A program made the position numbers and the translations under genes. The notes beneath the pieces were generated by a model. That model was given only the letters and a program-made list of their open reading frames with translations. It did no database searches and was not told the origin of the DNA. Positions 3,713 to 64,000 of a stretch of 64,000 bases of DNA are shown here, piece by piece (the first letter of the stretch is position 1; every line of letters begins with the position of its first letter). The DNA comes from Quercus robur (Eukaryota > Streptophyta > Magnoliopsida > Fagales > Fagaceae), in NCBI RefSeq assembly GCF_932294415.1, contig NC_065541.1, forward strand, positions 47,966,290 to 48,030,289, written 5' to 3'.

Positions 3713-4687
3713 GAAAAAACATTAGGTCAGACTGTGGCGTAAAACTTTGGTTTTACACCATCCAATAGCCTTTCGCCACGTCACATATCACTTAAAAACA
3801 GAACGATTTCAAAAAAAAAAAAAAAAAAAAAAAATCATGCTGTTTCCCTTTGCTTCACTGCCTCTTGTCCTATATACGTGTTCCCACAAGTCTCACAACC
3901 CCTCTTCGCTTTCCTCTTTCTCTAGACTCTTCCTTTCCTCTATATCTTCCTATCTCTCTCTCTCTCGCTCTCTCTGTGTGCAAGCCATCCATGGCGGCCG
4001 ATCTAGAAATTAAGGCCAAGGAAGCCTACATCGACTTCAAGCTCGCAGTCGAGCTCTACTCCCAGGCCATCGAGCAAAACCCTGAAAACGCTAAGCTCTT
4101 CGCTAAACGCACCCAAGCCAACATCAAACTCAACTGCTTCACTGGTTTTTTAGCCTTCCTTTCCTACCCTTTTTGAGTTTTTCCCTTTCTTTTCTCTTTT
4201 GGGTACTGAAAAAAATTGTGGGTTTTTATTGATTTGACTATCTCCTTTTTTTTTATTCTTTTTTCTTGTTTGGTTGCTAAGAAAACATTAGGAAAAGAAA
4301 ATTGAAGACGTGTGGAAAATAAGTGAAGAATTTTAAGTTTGTTGTGTTGAATTGTTGTGTTTTTTTGGCATTATTATTGTTGTTGTTGTTACTGTTGTTG
4401 GGTTTTACCCCATCCTCTTGAGTAAAACTAGAAAGAGATGGGGTTTTCTTCTTCTTTTTCTTTTTCGTTTTCGTTTTTTCGGTTTCTTGGCAACCAAACA
4501 TACTTAAGAGTGTTTCGTCCTCGCGGCAGAGGACACGACGTGGTGAAGCAGAGGAAAACGGCAAGAACTTTTTTCTTGGAAATCATTTTGTTTCTCTTTA
4601 GGATTTAAGTGATGGATGACGTGGCAAATGGCTATTGGATGGCGTAAAACACTGGTTTTACGCCATAGCCTGACCTAATGTTTTCTC
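3713..4687. mobile_element. Pack-MULE (Mutator-like) carrying an SGT1 fragment
   Basis: The 975-bp element has long terminal inverted repeats of about 80 bp, starting GAAAAAACATTAGGTCAG at the left and GAGAAAACATTAGGTCAG on the other strand at the right. Both continue through a GGCGTAAAAC segment and CCATCCAATAGCC. It is flanked by the 9-bp direct repeat TTTTGATAT (3704-3712 and 4688-4696), the classic Mutator signature. The interior holds no transposase. It holds a CT-rich 5' leader, the first exon of SGT1 and intron-like sequence, which together define a Pack-MULE. It sits inside the 140-bp MITE. Confidence 0.88.
3991..4146 (+). pseudogene. SGT1: Captured SGT1 first-exon fragment
   Basis: The ATG at 3991 opens a frame beginning MAADLEIKAKEAY, followed by LAVELYSQAIEQNP, AKLFAKRTQANIKLN and CFT. 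This matches the start and first TPR repeat of plant SGT1, the co-chaperone that works with HSP90 and RAR1 to stabilise NLR receptors and also serves SCF ligases. Compared with the SGT1 sequence as I remember it, about two residues are missing where DDHFELAV would be (here DFKLAV), and several substitutions occur. The exon stops at a GT (about 4147) that corresponds to the intron 1 donor, and intron-like sequence then reads to a stop at 4176. The upstream 3900-3990 CT-rich leader was probably captured too. There is no TPR remainder, CS or SGS domain, so this is a gene fragment and not a working gene. Confidence 0.82.
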
Positions 4688-14020: not shown

Positions 14021-14289
14021 CAATGAAAAAGGGAAATGGCAAAACATATCTCTTGGTTATTAGCAGAAAGAACATCAAAGCATTTTATTACAAATTCAAA
14101 GGAATGGTGTTACAAATAGCTCATGTATAGATGACAAATCATTGGAAATAAAATGTTTATCTTCAAATGAGACGAAGAGTGCCTAATAGAAATACATTGA
14201 AGGTGACTGCAATACTAAAAAGAATAATGAATTGCCGTTGACTTCCAAGTCCTATATGTTTTCTTCTTGCACTCATCCTAGTATTATCT

Positions 14290-14581
14290 TCACACTTCAA
14301 TCTTTAAGGATTTGGCTCATCTTCAAGCCAACAATGGCTCGGTCCTGCCTCCTCATCATGAAGTCCTCTCTTAAACTTTATCTGCCAGGCCTGAGCTTCA
14401 ACATCCTTATTTGATGTAGAGGTATAATTAATCATTTTTCAGTCTTTTAGGTTGTGGTTCATCTTCAGGCCAACCATGACTTGCTCCTGCCTCCTTATCA
14501 TGAAGTCCTCTCTTAAACTTCATAGGCCAGGCCTAAGCTTTAACATCCTCATTTGATGTAGAGGCATAAGGAATCATTTTT
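14290..14581 (-). repeat. 143-bp tandem duplication of the TNL 3' end
   Basis: The end of the TNL coding region and the sequence after its stop (14449-14581) are repeated at about 14304-14437, offset 143 bp. On the minus strand both copies read STSN, then DV, then KFKRGLHD and EAG. The copy in the gene has TAG (14533-14535) where the downstream copy has CAG (14390-14392). Because 143 is not a multiple of 3, the second unit lies in a different frame from the first. Confidence 0.85.
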
Positions 14582-17500
14582 CCATCAAGAACCCCATCAT
14601 ATAATAGGCTGACCCCTATCTTCTTAACAATGAATCCAACCCCAAAATCTATGGTAACGTCTACTTTATCACCGCCCTCCAAATTGAACTCACCTTTAGA
14701 AACATTGCCCAGCCACAGGTGATCTTCAAGGGAGATTACAACATCAGCTGTTATTTGCCTAGAGGCCTGACTAATATTCTTCGTATGATTGACAATTGAA
14801 ATGCTAAGAAGATTTTGAGATACTATATTGTCATTGCTTGGACGTGGTGAATAAACAGTGCATACCACAAACCCTACCACATTAAGATCAATAATACGAG
14901 GCACTTCAAAACACACGGAGGGCCCTTCATCCTTATACATGAAGCAATCAGGAATATCACCACCAGGGAGGAATATGCTAAGCTCGTTACCAACTCCACT
15001 CATAGTGCATTCCTGTTCCATAAGGAGCATGATTTATCAAAGCTACACTTGAAAAAAAAAAAAGATATTCATTCATAAAAACAAAGGTGGATTGGGTTGG
15101 GGGGGGGGGGTGGTATTGAGAGAGAGAGAAAGAGAGAGAGGAAACCTGTAGGATGCTTTGCTTGAAAGAACTTGTCATATTGTTGCACTCTTCCATGTGA
15201 AGGGTTCCAAAGTACTTCAATAGTTTATATAAACCTGGAATCTCGACTAATTTGTGGCAATTAGTAAGGAACAAAGTTTGCATATTTGAGATCTCTGATA
15301 CATTTGGCATTCTTTCCAACTTCATGCAGTTTGTTGCATGCAAAATATTCAAACTTTTAGGTAAATCTGCTATTGATTGAAGTTCTGTGCAATAATCCAA
15401 AGTTAGCCTACGAAGCTTCAAAAGACCACCAAAGCTTGATGGTAGGACTTGGAACTTATTCCTTTGTAGATCTAAAGATTGAAGAGAACATAAACTCCCA
15501 AGATCTTTCAGAATTTTGTCATTTGATAGATCGCAATCATTGAGACATAATTCTTTTAGCGAGGATAAGCCTTGTAGTGAACCCGGCAAAGGTTGTAATC
15601 CTTTACACCCACCCAGAGATAAATGTTTGAGGTTCTTCAATCGTCCTATGGTAAATGGAACTGTTCTTATGGCAGTGTTGTCTATCCGAAGAGTAGTCAA
15701 GCATTCCATCTCCCCCAAGTCGTCAGCCAAATTGTCAATATTAGAACAATCACAAAGAATGAGAGTTTTAAGAGACTTCAACTTATAGAGACTCTTCGGC
15801 AGACTTCTAAGGTTTTTGCAACCTTTCAAATTTATCAAAACAAGTTTATCAAGATCTCCAATAGATTGGTGAACCTCAAACAAACTGGTACAATCTTTGA
15901 GTACTAATTTTTCAAGATTGGGGAGTCTTGAAAAGTCAGGGGTCCGGGTTAGATCATGTGAATGACTGAGATTTAGGACTTCCAACTTATTGAGCAACTG
16001 GTAAAGAGAGAGAAAATAAGGAAAACATAATATTAGCCCATAGATGATAAAAAATTATGGCTTGATGGTTAAGGTTAAATTATACCTTGGGATCTTCCCA
16101 AACTTCTTTGAGATTGCTATATCGCAAGTCAATTGCAACTATCTTTCTTAGACAAAAGTTGTTTGGTATAAACTTTAGAGGGAATCCATGCCAACGGAGC
16201 CACCGTAACTCTTTGGGAAGATATTCATAATCCCCAGTGAGTTGTGCGTGATCAAGTTGGAGTAATCTCAGCCTCTTCATCTTTTTAAATGTTTCTGTAT
16301 TGAAATCCAGCTGACTTCTTATTGTATTGAAATTCTCATCACTTCTTGACAATTTTAAAGCGAGTCCTTCAACTTGTTTCCTTCCCTGATTAAAACAAGA
16401 ACTGTGTAAGCAAATTGGTTATGTGGAAGTTGAGAGATTTAAAAAAAGAAAAAAAGAAATATAGACTTAGCAAAACAGCATGTACCACAGAACCTCATAC
16501 TATAGCAAGAAAAATGTCCCATTTTTCTAATCCCTTCATCAACATTTGAACCAAACCAATGTATTCTTATTGGCATCTATCAGACACTTTCTTAATAGAA
16601 TAATGTAAACCATGCCAAGAAGCTCAAAATCAATAGAACGATGTTAGAAAAGTAAACAAGTGTAGCAATTGATTAGAAATGAAGGGGATTACACTCTCGG
16701 GGCATATCATTGTTAGGATATAAACAAAGTTCTGTTTTACTATTAATGGTTTCCCTAGAGGAAGTTCTTACCTCATGCATTTTCAATATGTCAATTACCT
16801 CCTCATGTAGCCATAATCTACAACGTTTACCATGTTCCTTGGGGCAATTTTCACGAACAATTTCTCTTCCCATGTCTCGAAGCAAATCATGCATCATAAG
16901 TTTGTTTCTCTCATCAACTGTAAGAAGACACCGTTGAATGAGGACAGTGATTCCAATTTGGGGAAAAAAACCACAGCCATTCAATATTTGTACAACATAG
17001 TTTTTGTCCATTCCGATAAAGAAACAGGATATATCAAGGAATATATCCTTCTCTGTATCATTGCTTAGTGCATCAAAGCTTATTCTAAGTATTTTTTGAA
17101 CTTGATGATTGGGAATCCTTTTTAATCTCTCCAATGCGCAGTTCCATTCTTGCATGCTCTTGCCGAACAAAAAAGAACCCAAAACGTCAAGAGCCAGTGG
17201 CAATCCTCCTGAATAAGCAACTACACTTCTTGATATGTCCATATAACCTTCAGTTGGATATTTGTTTCTAAAGGCATGCCAACTAAAGAGCTCAAGAGAT
17301 TCACTGTCACTCATTTGTTTAGTTGTATACACTCCATCCACTATAAGATTCTTTAGCAACTGCTCATATCTAGTTGTTATAATAATTCTACTTCCCAAAC
17401 CAAACCAATCACGACTTCCAGCTATGGCATTCAGTTGGTCCAATTGGTCTACATCATCAACTATAACAAGTACCCTTTTACGACGAAGTCTTTGTTGTAT

Positions 17501-19390
17501 CATAACGATTCCGCTAGCAACACTACTTACCTTTATCTTGCTTGTCCTTAAGGTTTCAGAAAGAAGTTGTTTTTGTAGACGAACCAGACCATGTTGATTG
17601 GAAGTTTCCCTAACATTTTCAAGAAAGTTTCTACCTTCAAAATGAAGATAAAATTTGTTATAAATGGCTTTAGCAATGGTTGTTTTCCCTGTTCCGCCCA
17701 TTCCCAAAATTCCTACCATGCGAACATCATTAGCTCCAACACATAATAGTGAAGTCATGTCTTCCATGCGAGCCTCTACTCCAACTGGGTAGCGTGCTAC
17801 AAATAAGTATTTGTTGTCCAATACTGATAAAATGCAATGAATGATTTTCCGAATAAACTCGGCTTCATGCCTGGAAATTATTTTGAGCAGTTAGGAATAA
17901 TAGTGGGATTAATAGTGATAATTAATTTATCCCCAACCTAGGACAAGTGCACTGACTATATGGTTTGGTCGTTAACCGTACGTGAGTTGCAGAATATCTA
18001 TCAAAATCTTTAATGATTTGTTTCCTCAAAGAAAAATAAAAAATCTTCAGTGATTTACTGGCAATTCCAAGGTGTGGAACATATGCGCATTGGTTTTTTA
18101 TCTCTCCTTAAAAGTTTAGAGAGAGTCAGAGGGAGATATTTAACATTGTAAGAACTTTAAGCCTTACTACTGTCTTGACGTACGGTAGGGATTGAAATTT
18201 GAATTACAAAAAATTATTTTCACTAAACAGATTTTGGATAGTTTAATCTTATCATAATCTTTACAATTTCATAATCTTTATCAAATAACCAATACTTAAA
18301 TAAGAATAAGGCCATGACCATGCTAAAGAAAATCTGCAACTCAACAACCTTAGGAACAGGCACTTATGCAAGGTCAGGGATAAGTTAATTAGTAAAGAGA
18401 AAGAAAGTATTGAAGGAAATAATATAAGGTTTGTGGCTATACATTAATCATAATATATATTTTCCCAAATTAATTAGGTTAGAGCAATAAATTTTAATGA
18501 TGATTTGTGTTAGAGTGTTTTTCTATCCATTAGATCTTTGGGGGACGTTGCCCCGGCCCAATACTGGGCCGTCCCTTCAATAATTAATTAATTTTACAAA
18601 ATAACTATAAACCAAATTTTTAAAAAACTCATTAGAAAAATGAAGATAAATCGGATAAAAGAGTAATTAACGTTAGTCCTTATAAATTATAAAATTATTA
18701 TGTTTACCACCACCTATTTAAATTGACTTCTGTTTTGTATGTTCATAAGAACGCGCATTTACATTTTGATTGAATCGTTACTAAGTTAGGAAGTTCCTCT
18801 CAAAAAAAAAAGGGGGAGGGAGTTGGGTTAATAATAATATTAGACATTTACCCGTCAGCAGTGCTTCTCAGATGGAACCCGGAAATACTAGCAGCATGAT
18901 TGAGAGCTCCCCTCCACCTGAATACCTTGTCTTTATCCAACAAGTAACGCTTTTCATGTTCCACAAACGCTTGTTCATAACTACCCCTCTGATTGCGCAC
19001 ATCGCAGGGATCAACATCATAGAATAGAGGCAGAACCCAAAGACCCCGATTTCTTTGGCACTCCATGATCTCCACGAGCTCCTCCAAACACCACCTGGAA
19101 GACGCGTAGTTTTTGGAGAAGACGATGAGGGATATTCTGGACCCTCGTATTGCTGGTAAAAGCTCGAAAGAAAGATTTTCTCCTTTTCGGATCTCTTCGT
19201 CGTCTCTGAAGGTGCGGATTCCAGCCTCTGTCAAAGCGTGGTAGAGGTGATCGGTGAAGTTCTTGCGAGTGTCTTCGCCTCTGAAACTCAGGAACACATC
19301 GTACTCATAGTCGTCGGGGGGTTGGTTGGAAGAAGACGATGAAGATGAAGATGAAGAGAAGGGTTTGGAAAGAGTTGTAGTGACAGCCAT
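14533..19390 (-). CDS. TIR-NBS-LRR immune receptor with C-JID domain (TNL)
   Basis: Five exons on the minus strand join in frame with GT-AG borders: 19390-18852, 17870-16772, 16385-16086, 15997-15146 and 15012-14533, giving 1089 residues. Exon 1 is the TIR domain (about 28-179: YDVFLSFRGEDTRKNFTDHL). Glu104 in WCLEELVEIM is the likely NADase catalytic residue. Exon 2 is the NB-ARC domain: P-loop GMGGTGKTT (240-244 core), kinase-2 VLVIVDDVD (Asp318-319), GSRIIITTR, GGLPLAL (about 401-407) and MHD at 506-508. Exons 3 and 4 (547-930) are leucine-rich repeats, and exon 5 is the post-LRR jelly-roll (FLPGGDIPDCF). The set is complete, so the protein is probably a functional intracellular pathogen sensor whose TIR makes signalling nucleotides after oligomerisation. 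The exon layout is the usual TNL one. The ATG at 19390 is followed by a Ser-rich linker. An in-frame amber stop ends the protein earlier than its ancestor did. Confidence 0.93.
17871..18851 (-). other. TNL intron 1
   Basis: The 981-bp intron lies between the TIR and NB-ARC exons. It is AT-rich, with no frame of note. A compact GC-rich patch (about 18540-18580, CCGGCCCAATACTGGGCCG) is nearly self-complementary and may be the end of a small transposon. Nothing else is seen. Confidence 0.7.
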
Positions 19391-59132: not shown

Positions 59133-59685
59133 TTGTTCGATCTTATACCAAATTATAAAATACCTATCTAATACTTTATGTACCTAGTGGCAACTACTTG
59201 TGTCTACGTTTGTAGATAGATAACCACCCAATCCCATCGAGTTAAAAACCTCGGTGTGGATTTTACCAAACATAGTCCACACATTTCAATTCCTTGTATC
59301 AACTAAAGGATATAATATACAGCATATTCCTCAATCCTCAAAACCACAATGGCCTGAAATACTTGTTATCTTTTCTGACTTGTCTCTTCATATGTAGCCT
59401 TCATCTTTCGATACATCGCAGTACAAACTAGAGAGTTGAAATTTTTTTATACTCTCAGCCAATTAAGAAAATTTGTAACATTGTTTTATTTTATAGACTC
59501 AAAAAAAAAAAACCTAATCTACTTTACTACTAGTTTAAGTGTCCACTCATTTGTTATAAACTAGAGCACTTTTTTCAAAGAAGCTACACCAGAGGTGAGA
59601 TCCATTGAAAAAGCCTCAAAGCTACACTAAAATCGAAGCTAGATAAAATATTCAGAAGATTCAGATTCTCTGCGCTAGTTTTGAG
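59133..59685 (+). promoter_or_regulatory. PSY upstream region
   Basis: This is the space between the divergently placed tRNA-Lys and PSY, so it probably holds the PSY promoter and 5' leader. A CACGTG G-box, common in light-regulated carotenoid genes, was not seen. No firm TATA box was chosen. Confidence 0.4.
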
Positions 59686-62600
59686 ATGTCCGCTGTTCTT
59701 CTTTGGGTGGTTTGTCCCAAGGAGAATGCTCACTCTTTGCTCAGTCTCGTGCCCAGAAATTGTTGCACACAAAGGAGGTGCAGTAGTAGTAATAAGCTGC
59801 TGAGCTCTAAGCCTAGTTTATCATCTGGGGTTGCTGCATATTCGAGTGCAGTTGCAAACCCATCAAGATCCTCGGAGGAAAGGGTGTATGAAGTGGTGCT
59901 GAAGCAAGCAGCTCTGGTGAGAGAGCAGAGAGGAGAGAGTGCACTGGGTTTGAAAAAACCAATTGAGACTGATTGTACCACCGATTGGAACCTGTTGAAT
60001 GATGCTTATGAAAGGTGTGGAGAGGTCTGTGCTGAGTATGCAAAGACATTTTACTTGGGTACTTGCTCTTTCAGCTCCTCCTCTCTCTCTGTTTGTGTGG
60101 CCGTTATCTATTCCGTTTTTAACTTTCTATCTACATAATGTTGTTGCTTTAAAAAAAAAAAAAAATTATCTGGGGTCCATTAATTCTATATTTTTTAAGC
60201 AAAAAGGTTTTGGATCTGCAGAAGAATTAGTCTTTGGTTTCATATATTCACTTTTCTATGGCCCTAAAGACTTATAATATATGTTTTTTTTTTCTCCCAC
60301 TATATATAAGTTTGTTTTTCTTTTTCTGTTTCCTGTGACACTTTTTCCTTTTGTGTGAAGAAAATATGGCAATTTTATTAATTGATAAACACTACAACAC
60401 AGTAAATTACATAGTGTTCATCCGTTTGGTTGTTAGAAAACTGGGAGAGAAGATATGAAATTTTAGAATTGTGCAGGTATATTCTGACGCCAGATTTGTT
60501 AAAAACAAATGCATGCAACATAAAAAAAATTAAAGCATGGAGCATTTTTTATATTTTATTTATTTATTTACATATTCTGGTAAAGATAAGTGGGGGGGAG
60601 GTTTCGAACTGAGTCTTCAGTCTTCACCCACCCCTTTTTTGTCTTATACTGATGCCCAAACAAATCATTTTACTATGATTAGAATACTTAGACCAACCAG
60701 CGTAAGCAATCTCTTTCAACTATGAGTACATTCTTTAAAATTGACTTAACTCAGTAATTTTTAACTTGTGCATTTTTCTTTTTGAATCTTAATTTCTTGT
60801 ACAATTGGCAAAATACAGTTTAATTGAGCTTCTTCTGGTGCAATTTTCAGGTACATTACTCATGACACCAGAACGGCGAAGAGCTGTTTGGGCAATTTAT
60901 GGTATGCACGGTTTCTTTTTTTCTGATTTAATAAGTAGTGACACAAAAGATTTTCACAAATGTTTTTTTAACAATTGTTGAGATTTCATATTGTGGTTAG
61001 TATATATTAAAAGTTGTGTTAATGGTATATCCATAAGAAAATGATGTTACACAATCTTAAGTCATCAACTTTTTTGTGTATCTAGCATTGCCCTTTTAGT
61101 TTTTCTTTTTGAAATGACAATTACTCTTGAAACTATCGATTTGTAAATGTAATTCTTGAAATGTTTAAATCGGTTCAATATTACTCTTGCCTCACTCACA
61201 GTTAAATTATGCCTTCTCTGAACTCTTTGATCCTCGTATTACTAAGAATGAAAGTTATGATTAGTTGAAAGAAAATTCTTTTTGTAGAACAATTTTACAA
61301 AATCTGTTATGTTAGGTTCTAAGACTTTAGAAACTAAATGTATTAGAACTTCAATTTATAATGTGTTGGAAAACCATGATCAAAATTTAGAGTCTAGGTT
61401 TAGGCTGTTCAAAGTGTGTCTATTTGTAAAATTAAAATCGAGTGATTGCAGAATTTATTGGACTAAATCTGCAAAGCCCGATCGATCGAAAATTAGACTT
61501 GATCGATTGAATCTCGTACAGATTTATTTTTCTGCAGAATTTCCAATTCAGCCCAAGCCTATGTGACGTGTAGGGTTTTATGTTTTACTCCAAGTATAAA
61601 AGGAAAAACCCTAGCTACGTTTTAGAAGTCTTTTGATGTGCTGTGTGTTGAATTTCTTGTGAGATCTAGAAGTGTTTACCTTCATACACATTTAGAGTTA
61701 TCAAGATTAAGATTCATGTCAAGAACTTGGTGATCGTTTTAGTTGCTTCATAAAGAACTTAAAGAAGATCTAAAACCTTTGAGTGTAGTCTTAAAGTCAC
61801 AAGTAGGAGAACTTGTGATTGTAGTGGATCAAAGAAATAAGTAGTCAGTGGAATCGGAGCTGTCACGTAGTCATGGTAGTAAGTTTTCTACTCGAGGTAG
61901 CAATAGGATGTTAGTGGTCTAAGTCTTATTGTACAAACTTCAATTCTTTCATAGTGGATTTGTTTTACCTTGAGGATAGTTAGGTTAAATCCTCCCTAAG
62001 TTTTTTACTAGTTTGATTTTCCTGAGTTATCATATCGTGTGTTCTTCATATTTCCGCATTATTTACATGATATGAGTTTATTGTGATAACCTAGATTTGA
62101 ATAATTTATCTAATTAATCACTTGGCTAAATAATTAGGTTAAAAAATTTGTGTTTTAAGGGGTCTAAAAACGAACAAGTGGTATCAGAGCCAAGGTCATG
62201 GGTATGAGTCACGAGAGTGTCATTGTGAGGGAGGGATTGTTGGGGGGACTACAATTTGGCTCCCTACAACCACTCTAAAAATAGGTCCGCGTGGCGTGAT
62301 GTCGAATGCTATAAAAGATTTGAGTGTGTCTTGCTCATTACCAATTGGTTTTGAGGTGGAATGGTACAGCTCACAGTCCGATATATTGACTTCTAGAATG
62401 AAAATGGGTTTGAGGGTAATACTGAATCATTTTCAAAATTTAAGGGATTAAACATTTAAAATGATACAATTGATAGGTTAGACACAAAATGAACTCTTAT
62501 GGATTGTTCAAGGCCAAATTCATAATTCTCACTATCCCCACTTTTTTCTATATCCATTTGGGAAATCAATAATCATTTCTCTTGATTATTATTATTAAAT

Positions 62601-63291
62601 ATCTAATATTTCTTTTTTGAGATTGTATGTTGACTCTCAAACATAGCCAAGATTGCCAACAAAAATGTTTTTCTCATTTTACATGTTTTACTTTGCCGTG
62701 GATATTTATTGTGCTTAGCTAGAGTTAGATAATTATAATTGCTGATTGAAGGATGCATTACTTTCTGCTCTGTAGTGTGGTGCCGGAGAACTGACGAGCT
62801 TGTGGATGGGCCTAATGCTACACACATCACACCCAAGGCTCTGGAAAGATGGGAGACAAGGTTAAATGACCTTTTTGAAGGTCGACCATATGATATGTAT
62901 GATGCTGCCCTATCTGATACTGTCTCAAAGTACCCTGTTGATATACAGGTAAATTCCAAATGGCTGAACAAACTGGCTTGATCACTTGTATATTAGATAA
63001 AATGTCTATTTTCGTTAAGATTGACCAATTTACTATAACTTGTCTCATTGGACAGCCCTTCAAAGACATGATAGAAGGAATGAGGCTAGACTTGAGAAAA
63101 TCAAGATATGAGAACTTCGATGAGCTCTACCTTTACTGCTACTATGTTGCCGGGACTGTGGGGCTTATGAGTGTTCCAGTAATGGGGATAGCACCAGAAT
63201 CAAAGGCTTCAACAGAGAGTGTTTACAATGCTGCATTGGCCCTTGGAATTGCTAATCAACTCACCAACATACTCAGAGACGTTGGAGAAGA
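59686..63291 (+). CDS. PSY: Phytoene synthase, 5' portion (runs off the window)
   Basis: Four exons are visible: 59686-60058, 60851-60901, 62776-62948 and 63056-63291. They join in frame with GT-AG borders and give the first 277 residues. Phytoene synthase condenses two geranylgeranyl diphosphates to phytoene in plastids, the first committed carotenoid step. The start [19 protein letters not shown] and the Ser-rich stretch to about residue 60 look like a chloroplast transit peptide. The conserved core includes [20 protein letters not shown], the first Asp-rich motif DELVD (148-152) and [20 protein letters not shown]. It reaches NILRDVGE (271-277), where the second Asp-rich motif begins. Its last Asp is completed by the next exon. 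PSY proteins usually exceed 400 residues, so the remaining C-terminal exons lie beyond the right edge. The exon pattern is that of plant PSY genes. Confidence 0.95.
61310..62190 (+). mobile_element. LTR retrotransposon LTR plus primer-binding site in PSY intron 2
   Basis: A unit starting TGTTAGGTTCTAAGAC and ending GAACA (62176) is followed after two bases by TGGTATCAGAGC (62179-62190). This is complementary to initiator tRNA-Met and is the standard primer-binding site of plant copia elements. TATAAAAGGAAAAACCC (about 61595) fits an LTR promoter. Sequence after the site lacks gag or pol, so most of the element is gone. The left end is approximate, and no second LTR is seen in the intron. Confidence 0.6.
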
Positions 63292-64000
63292 GTAAGTTTC
63301 TTAGAATGCACAATCGCATATATACCATACAAATTTGATATGATGTTTTCCATATCTATTAATTTTCATAGTCAAGTAAACATGTAATACAAATTCGGTT
63401 TAGTAAATTAATACAATTTTTACTTAATAAACTTAAATGCATGCCTTTGATGTTGCATTCGCCCAAACTATAATCTAATGATTATCTAATTATTCCATTT
63501 ACGCTTCAATAGTAATGATTTTATTAAACATGAAATGAAAATGCAGTTTTAAGTTTTTTTTCATTTTAGTTGTACATGTTAATGATGGCTGTACCCAATG
63601 CACAAAGCTTCCACTTTTGTGGGGTCTGGGAGAGGTCATAGACTCATAGCTTGCAGCCTTACATCATATTTTTTTGGAGAGGCTGATTGGGTTTGTTTAA
63701 GCTTAATTCTTATGTACTTGAGCTTTTAACTTGAGTTAGAATTTAAACAAGCTTCACAAATTGAAGTTGAGCTATTCAGGAACAACTTGATTCATTTTAC
63801 CGCTATATATCGTGTCTATAAAGCACATGTATTTGACTTTATTCTAGGTGGTTATTATGAAACCTTTTTTTTGCACCCCTTCAATAGATACTTTGATTTA
63901 AGTTTATCACTTTTGATGATGATTCCAACTCTTGAGATTGGCTTCATGTAATTTAGGGAGAGAGGTGGATTGACATTTTATTTTTTAGTCTTGGATACTT
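63292..64000 (+). other. Start of PSY intron 4
   Basis: After the donor GTAAGT at 63292 the sequence is AT-rich intron to the window edge. The next PSY exon is not reached, and no transposon end was recognised. Confidence 0.7.

Follow-up and report, generated by a model that had tools for sequence, protein, structure and literature searches.

An otherwise intact TIR-NB-LRR (TNL) immune receptor gene of Quercus robur ends at an amber codon that probably arose by a derived C-to-T change (CAG to TAG) and cut off a nuclear-signal-like tail, which was probably already losing constraint. We take the amber codon to be derived because its counterpart is CAG in all three close paralogs found, because the tail continues in two of them, and because the tail, which lies in copy 1 of a tandem duplication, resembles the tails of four distant TNLs; the removal of a basic, nuclear-signal-like tail by a C-to-T change had been suggested in the original prediction, and these comparisons support it. 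Given that the three paralogs damaged their tails by other lesions, the tail appears to have been losing constraint already, and because its pattern of two basic clusters is intact in no close paralog, the amber codon may have had little effect. The case looks like the ordinary loss of a receptor tail that can be dispensed with, and variation of this kind is known.

The TNL gene and the silent tail behind its stop

In the window (the whole stretch of 64,000 nucleotides that was analyzed), the TNL gene occupies five exons of the minus strand (Table 1). In our exon model, all exons are open, all four introns have GT..AG ends, and the product of 1089 amino acids terminates at the TAG at 14535-14533, exactly where the original prediction had placed it. 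The TIR, NB-ARC, WHD_ROQ1, LRR, and C-JID domains all score above their Pfam cut-offs. The C-JID match in exon 5 (PF20160) is weak but accepted (28.4 bits versus a cut-off of 24.1), and its end is 21 residues away from the amber stop. Motifs that we take to be the P-loop, MHD, and TIR motifs appear intact in the translation when judged by eye. By sequence, the best solved-structure match of the TNL is ROQ1 (7jlv_A, E = 1.2e-201). A PDB search with the C-JID alone as the query yielded no credible match, and the structure predicted for exon 5 together with the tail has a mean pLDDT of only 32.6.

Table 1. Features of the TNL gene, its silent tail, and the tandem duplication at its 3′ end, in window coordinates.
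Feature	Position	Strand	Basis
TNL exon 1, TIR domain, donor GTAAAT	18852..19390	-	Pfam TIR PF01582, 167.4 bits; exon model
TNL exon 2, NB-ARC and winged helix	16772..17870	-	Pfam NB-ARC PF00931, 107.1 bits, and WHD_ROQ1 PF23282, 78.8 bits; exon model
TNL exon 3, NB-LRR linker	16086..16385	-	Exon model; matches no Pfam family by itself
TNL exon 4, leucine-rich repeats	15146..15997	-	Pfam LRR families, PF23598 (71.4 bits) and others; exon model
TNL exon 5, C-JID/post-LRR domain, up to the amber codon	14533..15012	-	Pfam C-JID; exon model
Amber stop TAG; CAG in 3/3 close paralogs found	14533..14535	-	Sequence and paralog alignment
Silent 34-codon tail past the amber codon, with basic clusters KFKR and PKRLK	14431..14532	-	Paralogs and distant tails
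TAA closing the silent tail, just within copy 2 of the duplication	14428..14430	-	Sequence
Copy 1 (first 142-bp unit), still coding over the 14 full codons that precede the amber codon	14438..14579	-	Self-comparison
Copy 2 (second 142-bp unit), lying in the 3′ flank and not in the TNL frame	14296..14437	-	Self-comparison
CAG in copy 2, counterpart of the amber codon	14391..14393	-	Sequence
Copy 2 stop (TAA) replacing the first K of PKRLK; first base common to L019	14304..14306	-	Sequence
46-codon stretch past the copy 2 TAA, open in the copy 2 frame and containing a hydrophobic segment toward the end	14163..14303	-	Sequence
AATAAA, likely poly(A) signal	14084..14089	-	First AATAAA after the stop

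Past the amber codon, the frame stays open for 34 residues (AWPMKFKRGLHDKEAGASHGWPEDEPQPKRLKND) up to the TAA at 14428-14430, as had been predicted. This basic tail after the C-JID is not translated in the TNL; the amber codon at 14535 comes first. Exon 5 measures 480 bp to the amber codon and 585 bp to the TAA, and the post-LRR exons of peach are reported to have a mean length of 578 bp (PMC4851768). Pfam returned no match for the 34 residues of the silent tail. In parts of the window taken as gene-poor, 9.3% of 59,414 start points open for at least 34 codons, and 12.8% of those contain a K[KR]x[KR] cluster. Because 9.3% of chance starts open that long, openness alone is weak proof of a real tail. 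We take the tail to be real because two of the three close paralogs continue into it and because it aligns with the tails of four distant TNLs.

Plant transcripts with long 3′ ends can become targets of nonsense-mediated decay, and the likely poly(A) signal of the TNL lies 443 nt past the amber codon. Nonsense-mediated decay is reported to hold the basal expression of TNLs low (PMC9153377).

Elsewhere in the window, a phytoene synthase-like gene lies at 59647-63295 (plus strand), and its exon at 62942-63295 matches SQS_PSY (Pfam, 90.3 bits). The frame at 59647-60138, which has no Pfam match, presumably belongs to the same gene. On the same strand, an exon at 3988-4153 resembles the first exon, the TPR part, of what we take to be the SGT1 family; its Pfam TPR_11 match is below the cut-off. 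This exon seems isolated; no further exons were recognized beside it by eye in the open frames to 8 kb.

Tails of close and distant relatives

A search of the 786-Mb assembly with the TNL exon as the query returned three close paralogs, L019, L020, and L021 (in gene regions L015, L017, and L016, respectively), and two remote matches. L019 is on the same contig as the TNL, about 30 kb away and in the same orientation; L020 and L021 are on another contig, some 13 kb apart. An alignment with relatives had been proposed as a check on the amber codon, and, when run on these paralogs, it revealed CAG at the amber position in all three and a frame that continues into the tail in two (L019 and L021). 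Given CAG in all three close paralogs, parsimony indicates that the T of TAG is the derived base in the TNL. Past the CAG, L019 reads DQAWSIKFKRGLHDEKAGPSHCWLEDEPNPL, with 31 residues between the last shared K and its TGA stop, and L021 reads DQAWPMQFEGGLHDEEAGPSHGWLKDEPKPKILKCEDNTEMGVAEE, with GVAEE directly before its stop. In L020, the CAG is followed by one more codon and then a stop, where the sequence departs from the family. In the region containing this paralog (L017, 8675-8740), the 3′ end diverges from the family no more than two codons from the amber-position codon, apparently by rearrangement.

The lesions of the tail are therefore of four kinds: the amber codon in the TNL, the TGA in L019, the replaced 3′ end in L020, and substitutions in both basic clusters in L021. 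No close paralog of the three retains an intact two-cluster basic pattern. The L017 gene also has a stop in its NB exon, just after the MHD motif. In the L016 region, the NB and LRR parts are spread over two frames, and no TIR was found within the 1.8 kb fetched before the NB match. That two of the three CAG-bearing paralogs (L017 region/L020 and L016 region/L021) are themselves damaged counts against our preferred explanation.

The LRR exon of the TNL (15146-15997, minus strand) is 852 bp long, and the matching stretch is 918 bp in L015 and 915 bp in L017, that is, 22 and 21 codons longer.

We picked 18 further TNL loci (L029-L046) from 150 TIR matches, as a chosen sample and not a census. 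A profile of the C-JID exon was built from 10 sequences (7 of the 18 loci, the window, and two paralogs). A C-JID-like exon is present in 13 of the 18 loci, a count that includes the 7 training loci; the other six matches range from 6e-25 to 5e-5. Four of these 13 (L031-L034) have a tail with KxKR or KxK plus PKR/TKR clusters, and the remaining nine lack a two-cluster tail there, with ends that are different or short (read by eye). When the copy 1 tail of the TNL was compared with the tails of L031-L034, 0, 8, 7, and 0 of 1000 shuffles, respectively, scored as high. In the control comparison, which comprised five of the nine distant tails without two clusters, 220, 447, 88, 702, and 644 of 1000 shuffles scored as high (L035, L036, L040, L041, and L042, respectively). 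The copy 2 tail matches well only L034 (0/1000 shuffles) and L033 (24/1000), and the L021 tail matches well only L034 (35/1000). No relatives were found in prokaryote and viral contigs (one query each), and a literature search for EAGPS with LRR gave no title about plant receptor tails.

We propose that the last exon of the TNL would formerly have extended beyond the C-JID and encoded a short basic tail, as it does in part of the Quercus robur TNLs. A change of CAG to TAG in the TNL, not common to its close paralogs, would then have left a protein that ends 21 residues past the C-JID match. The lost tail may have acted as a nuclear-import signal or added to one, and the truncated receptor may still fold and signal, with less dependence on nuclear import via the tail. 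If the tail imports receptors into the nucleus, this small gene cluster offers naturally tail-less and tail-damaged TNLs whose remaining parts are similar, usable to ask if TNL signaling needs nuclear entry. Gene models that stop soon past the C-JID may also conceal a lost tail.

The tandem duplication and constraint on the tail

The original prediction had described a 143-bp tandem duplicate downstream of the stop, with CAG at 14390-14392. The duplicate exists, but its unit is 142 bp long (122 of 142 positions are identical between the copies); the CAG is indeed present in copy 2, but at 14391-14393, one base off. Sense had also been claimed for the duplicate. CAG does stand there at the place of the amber codon, but because 142 = 3 × 47 + 1, copy 2 is in a different frame than the TNL, and because of its own TAA at 14306-14304, the PKRLK basic cluster is not preserved as sense. 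The stops are reciprocal, each copy having one where the other reads sense.

The 142-bp unit is single-copy in L019 and L021; the sequence of L020 diverges too soon for a copy count. Up to and including the amber codon, copy 1 and L019 differ at 2 of 47 sites, and beyond it at 16 of 95; for copy 2 and L019, the corresponding counts are 6/47 and 8/95. Five quartet sites group copy 2 with L019 and copy 1 with L021, versus one site for each of the other two groupings (bootstrap 0.90, 2000 replicates). The duplication thus appears to predate the split of the TNL from L019, with the caveat that the counts are small and that gene conversion could yield the same pattern. Recombination between the two 142-bp units would later have removed one of them from L019, and the amber codon would have arisen in the TNL after both the duplication and this loss. 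A recent duplication that simply records the lost codon, the role in which copy 2 had originally been cast, is disfavored: copy 2 is out of frame, has its own stop, and is seemingly older than the paralog split.

Past the TAA of copy 2, the 46-codon stretch ends with a hydrophobic segment, FIILFSIAVTFNVFLLGTL. A similar hydrophobic segment is present in L019, and L021 has stops in between. Pfam gave no match for the 46 residues. Of the chance starts, 3.5% open for at least 48 codons, a threshold two codons stricter than the actual 46, and 0.75% also have such a hydrophobic segment, a feature that was picked post hoc. On this weak evidence, the stretch is possibly a former membrane-type C-terminus.

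The amber codon could also be one neutral lesion among several in a tail that was already functionless in the subfamily, leaving the behavior of the receptor unchanged. We see an even chance of this. The different tail lesion in each of the four genes favors it, as do the polarized changes, which are equal in number in the two copies (7 in copy 1 and 7 in copy 2). Divergence from L019 points the same way: the post-amber value of copy 1 (16/95) exceeds that of introns 2-4 (37/577) and of intron 1, compared in four pieces (84/1150), although the excess may stem from the older duplication and not from decay. The copies differ at 20 nucleotides, of which 3 are silent; neutral drift gave a mean of 4.7 of 20 in 300 runs, and in another simulation 3 or fewer silent differences occurred in 56% of neutral runs. 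An equally low silent share was also seen in 9.5 to 13% of the runs in which copy 1 was held at dN/dS of 0.1 to 0.2. On the other side, only 14.5% of neutral runs gave a stop in both copies. The 3 of 20 silent differences therefore fit neutral drift but do not settle the matter, as constraint on copy 1 is also compatible with them, and both the silent share and the stop counts are low in power. Against a functionless tail, both basic clusters are kept in copy 1, the copy closest to the distant TNL tails, unlike what long neutral decay would leave. A functionless tail is a statement about the effect of the amber codon, not about its history, and can hold alongside the history that we prefer.

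Because the tail has been lost or damaged differently in each of the four genes, we give about equal odds to a functional switch and to a loss of constraint that preceded the amber codon. That the four-gene subfamily lost or damaged its tail in parallel through selection to keep the receptors out of the nucleus, and not through decay, strikes us as quite unlikely.

Fate of the receptor and its known counterparts

The original prediction had allowed for a pseudogenizing step, and the TNL could be turning into a pseudogene with the amber codon as the first lesion, which we judge unlikely. The dN/dS values are near 1 in all comparisons (1.16 versus L015 and 1.12 versus L017, both full-length paralogs, and about 0.8 to 1.0 for the NB exon against the same two), and, given the first two values, constraint on the whole gene is possibly weak. 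Two of the three paralogs are broken. In addition, the three post-LRR signatures of peach are all altered in the C-JID exon: at 14536-15012 (minus strand), none of IPxWF, GxAxCxV, and VKKCGxxL is exact, and each is one residue off (IPDCF, W to C; GFVVCTV, A to V; VKKIGVSL, C to I). In peach, these signatures are reported in 95, 89, and 83% of sequences, frequent but not universal (PMC4851768). However, the TNL has no stop in 1089 codons, where a lineage evolving fully neutrally since it split from L015 should have gained about 5.5 (P = 0.004), and with its four GT..AG introns it does not have the disabled reading frame of a pseudogene. Its P-loop, MHD, and TIR motifs, as noted above, look intact by eye, and peach transcriptome data have been used to argue against incomplete TNLs being pseudogenes (PMC4851768). 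Given the absence of stops despite dN/dS near 1, we suggest that the TNL is probably retained, with diversifying or relaxed selection on its amino acids.

It is very improbable that the gene yields two products, through readthrough of the amber codon or splicing around it, so that part of the receptor carries the tail. A G follows the TAG, the 34 codons are open to the TAA, and the 103 nt past the stop have a somewhat more favorable fold than shuffled versions (z = -1.98; 6 of 200 shuffles did equally well). Exon 5 also contains a donor, AAG/GTGAGT (14688-14696, with GT at 14693), that scores 9/9 versus 5 to 7 for the gene's own donors; it is present in L019 and L020 and was not found in L021. 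Nevertheless, we know of no readthrough motif that matches the amber context, and no convincing acceptor lies downstream of the exon 5 donor, as none with a pyrimidine tract like the TNL's own was evident by eye in 14540-14260. Because this donor is inside the C-JID, splicing from it would cut off the end of the domain. C-terminal splice variants are described for other TNLs and NLRs, for example RCT1 (PMC4100160).

That the post-amber stretch was never coding is scarcely credible: 9.3% of random starts do open 34 codons, but CAG in all three paralogs rules out the TAG as an old stop, and the frame continuing in two of them, together with the likeness of the copy 1 tail to four distant tails, rules out a frame open by chance.

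Among known systems, the TNL has the same domains in the same order as the C-JID TNLs (RPP1, ROQ1, RPS4, and N type), of which ROQ1 is the nearest solved. The TIR, the NB-ARC with its ROQ1-type winged helix, the LRR, and the C-JID are all over their cut-offs, the C-JID weakly. The TNL also shares the one-domain-per-exon plan of the Prunus Ma and peach TNLs, some of which are described with duplicated post-LRR parts (PMC4851768), and its own C-terminal end is duplicated too. However, the piece duplicated here is a 142-bp, non-triplet one that extends into the 3′ flank and adds no extra domain. A microsatellite is reported in the LRR/PL intron of about 60% of the peach genes (PMC4851768), and the TNL likewise has one in that intron, with CT repeats.

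Truncation by an early stop, as in the TNL, has a counterpart in Arabidopsis, where the TNL RRS1-S is described as shortened in this way relative to the RRS1-R allele (PMC4207616). The two RRS1 states are alleles that differ in recognition, whereas our comparison is between paralogs in one assembly. RPS4 carries at its C-terminus a bipartite nuclear localization sequence that is needed for nuclear accumulation, and its truncated forms without this sequence are thought likely to remain extranuclear (PMC4100160). The putative ancestor of the TNL would have resembled RPS4 in that a basic, bipartite-like tail followed its C-JID. In RPS4 the tail is lost via splicing, whereas in the TNL the loss of a tail with a presumed nuclear role would be fixed in the gene by a stop.
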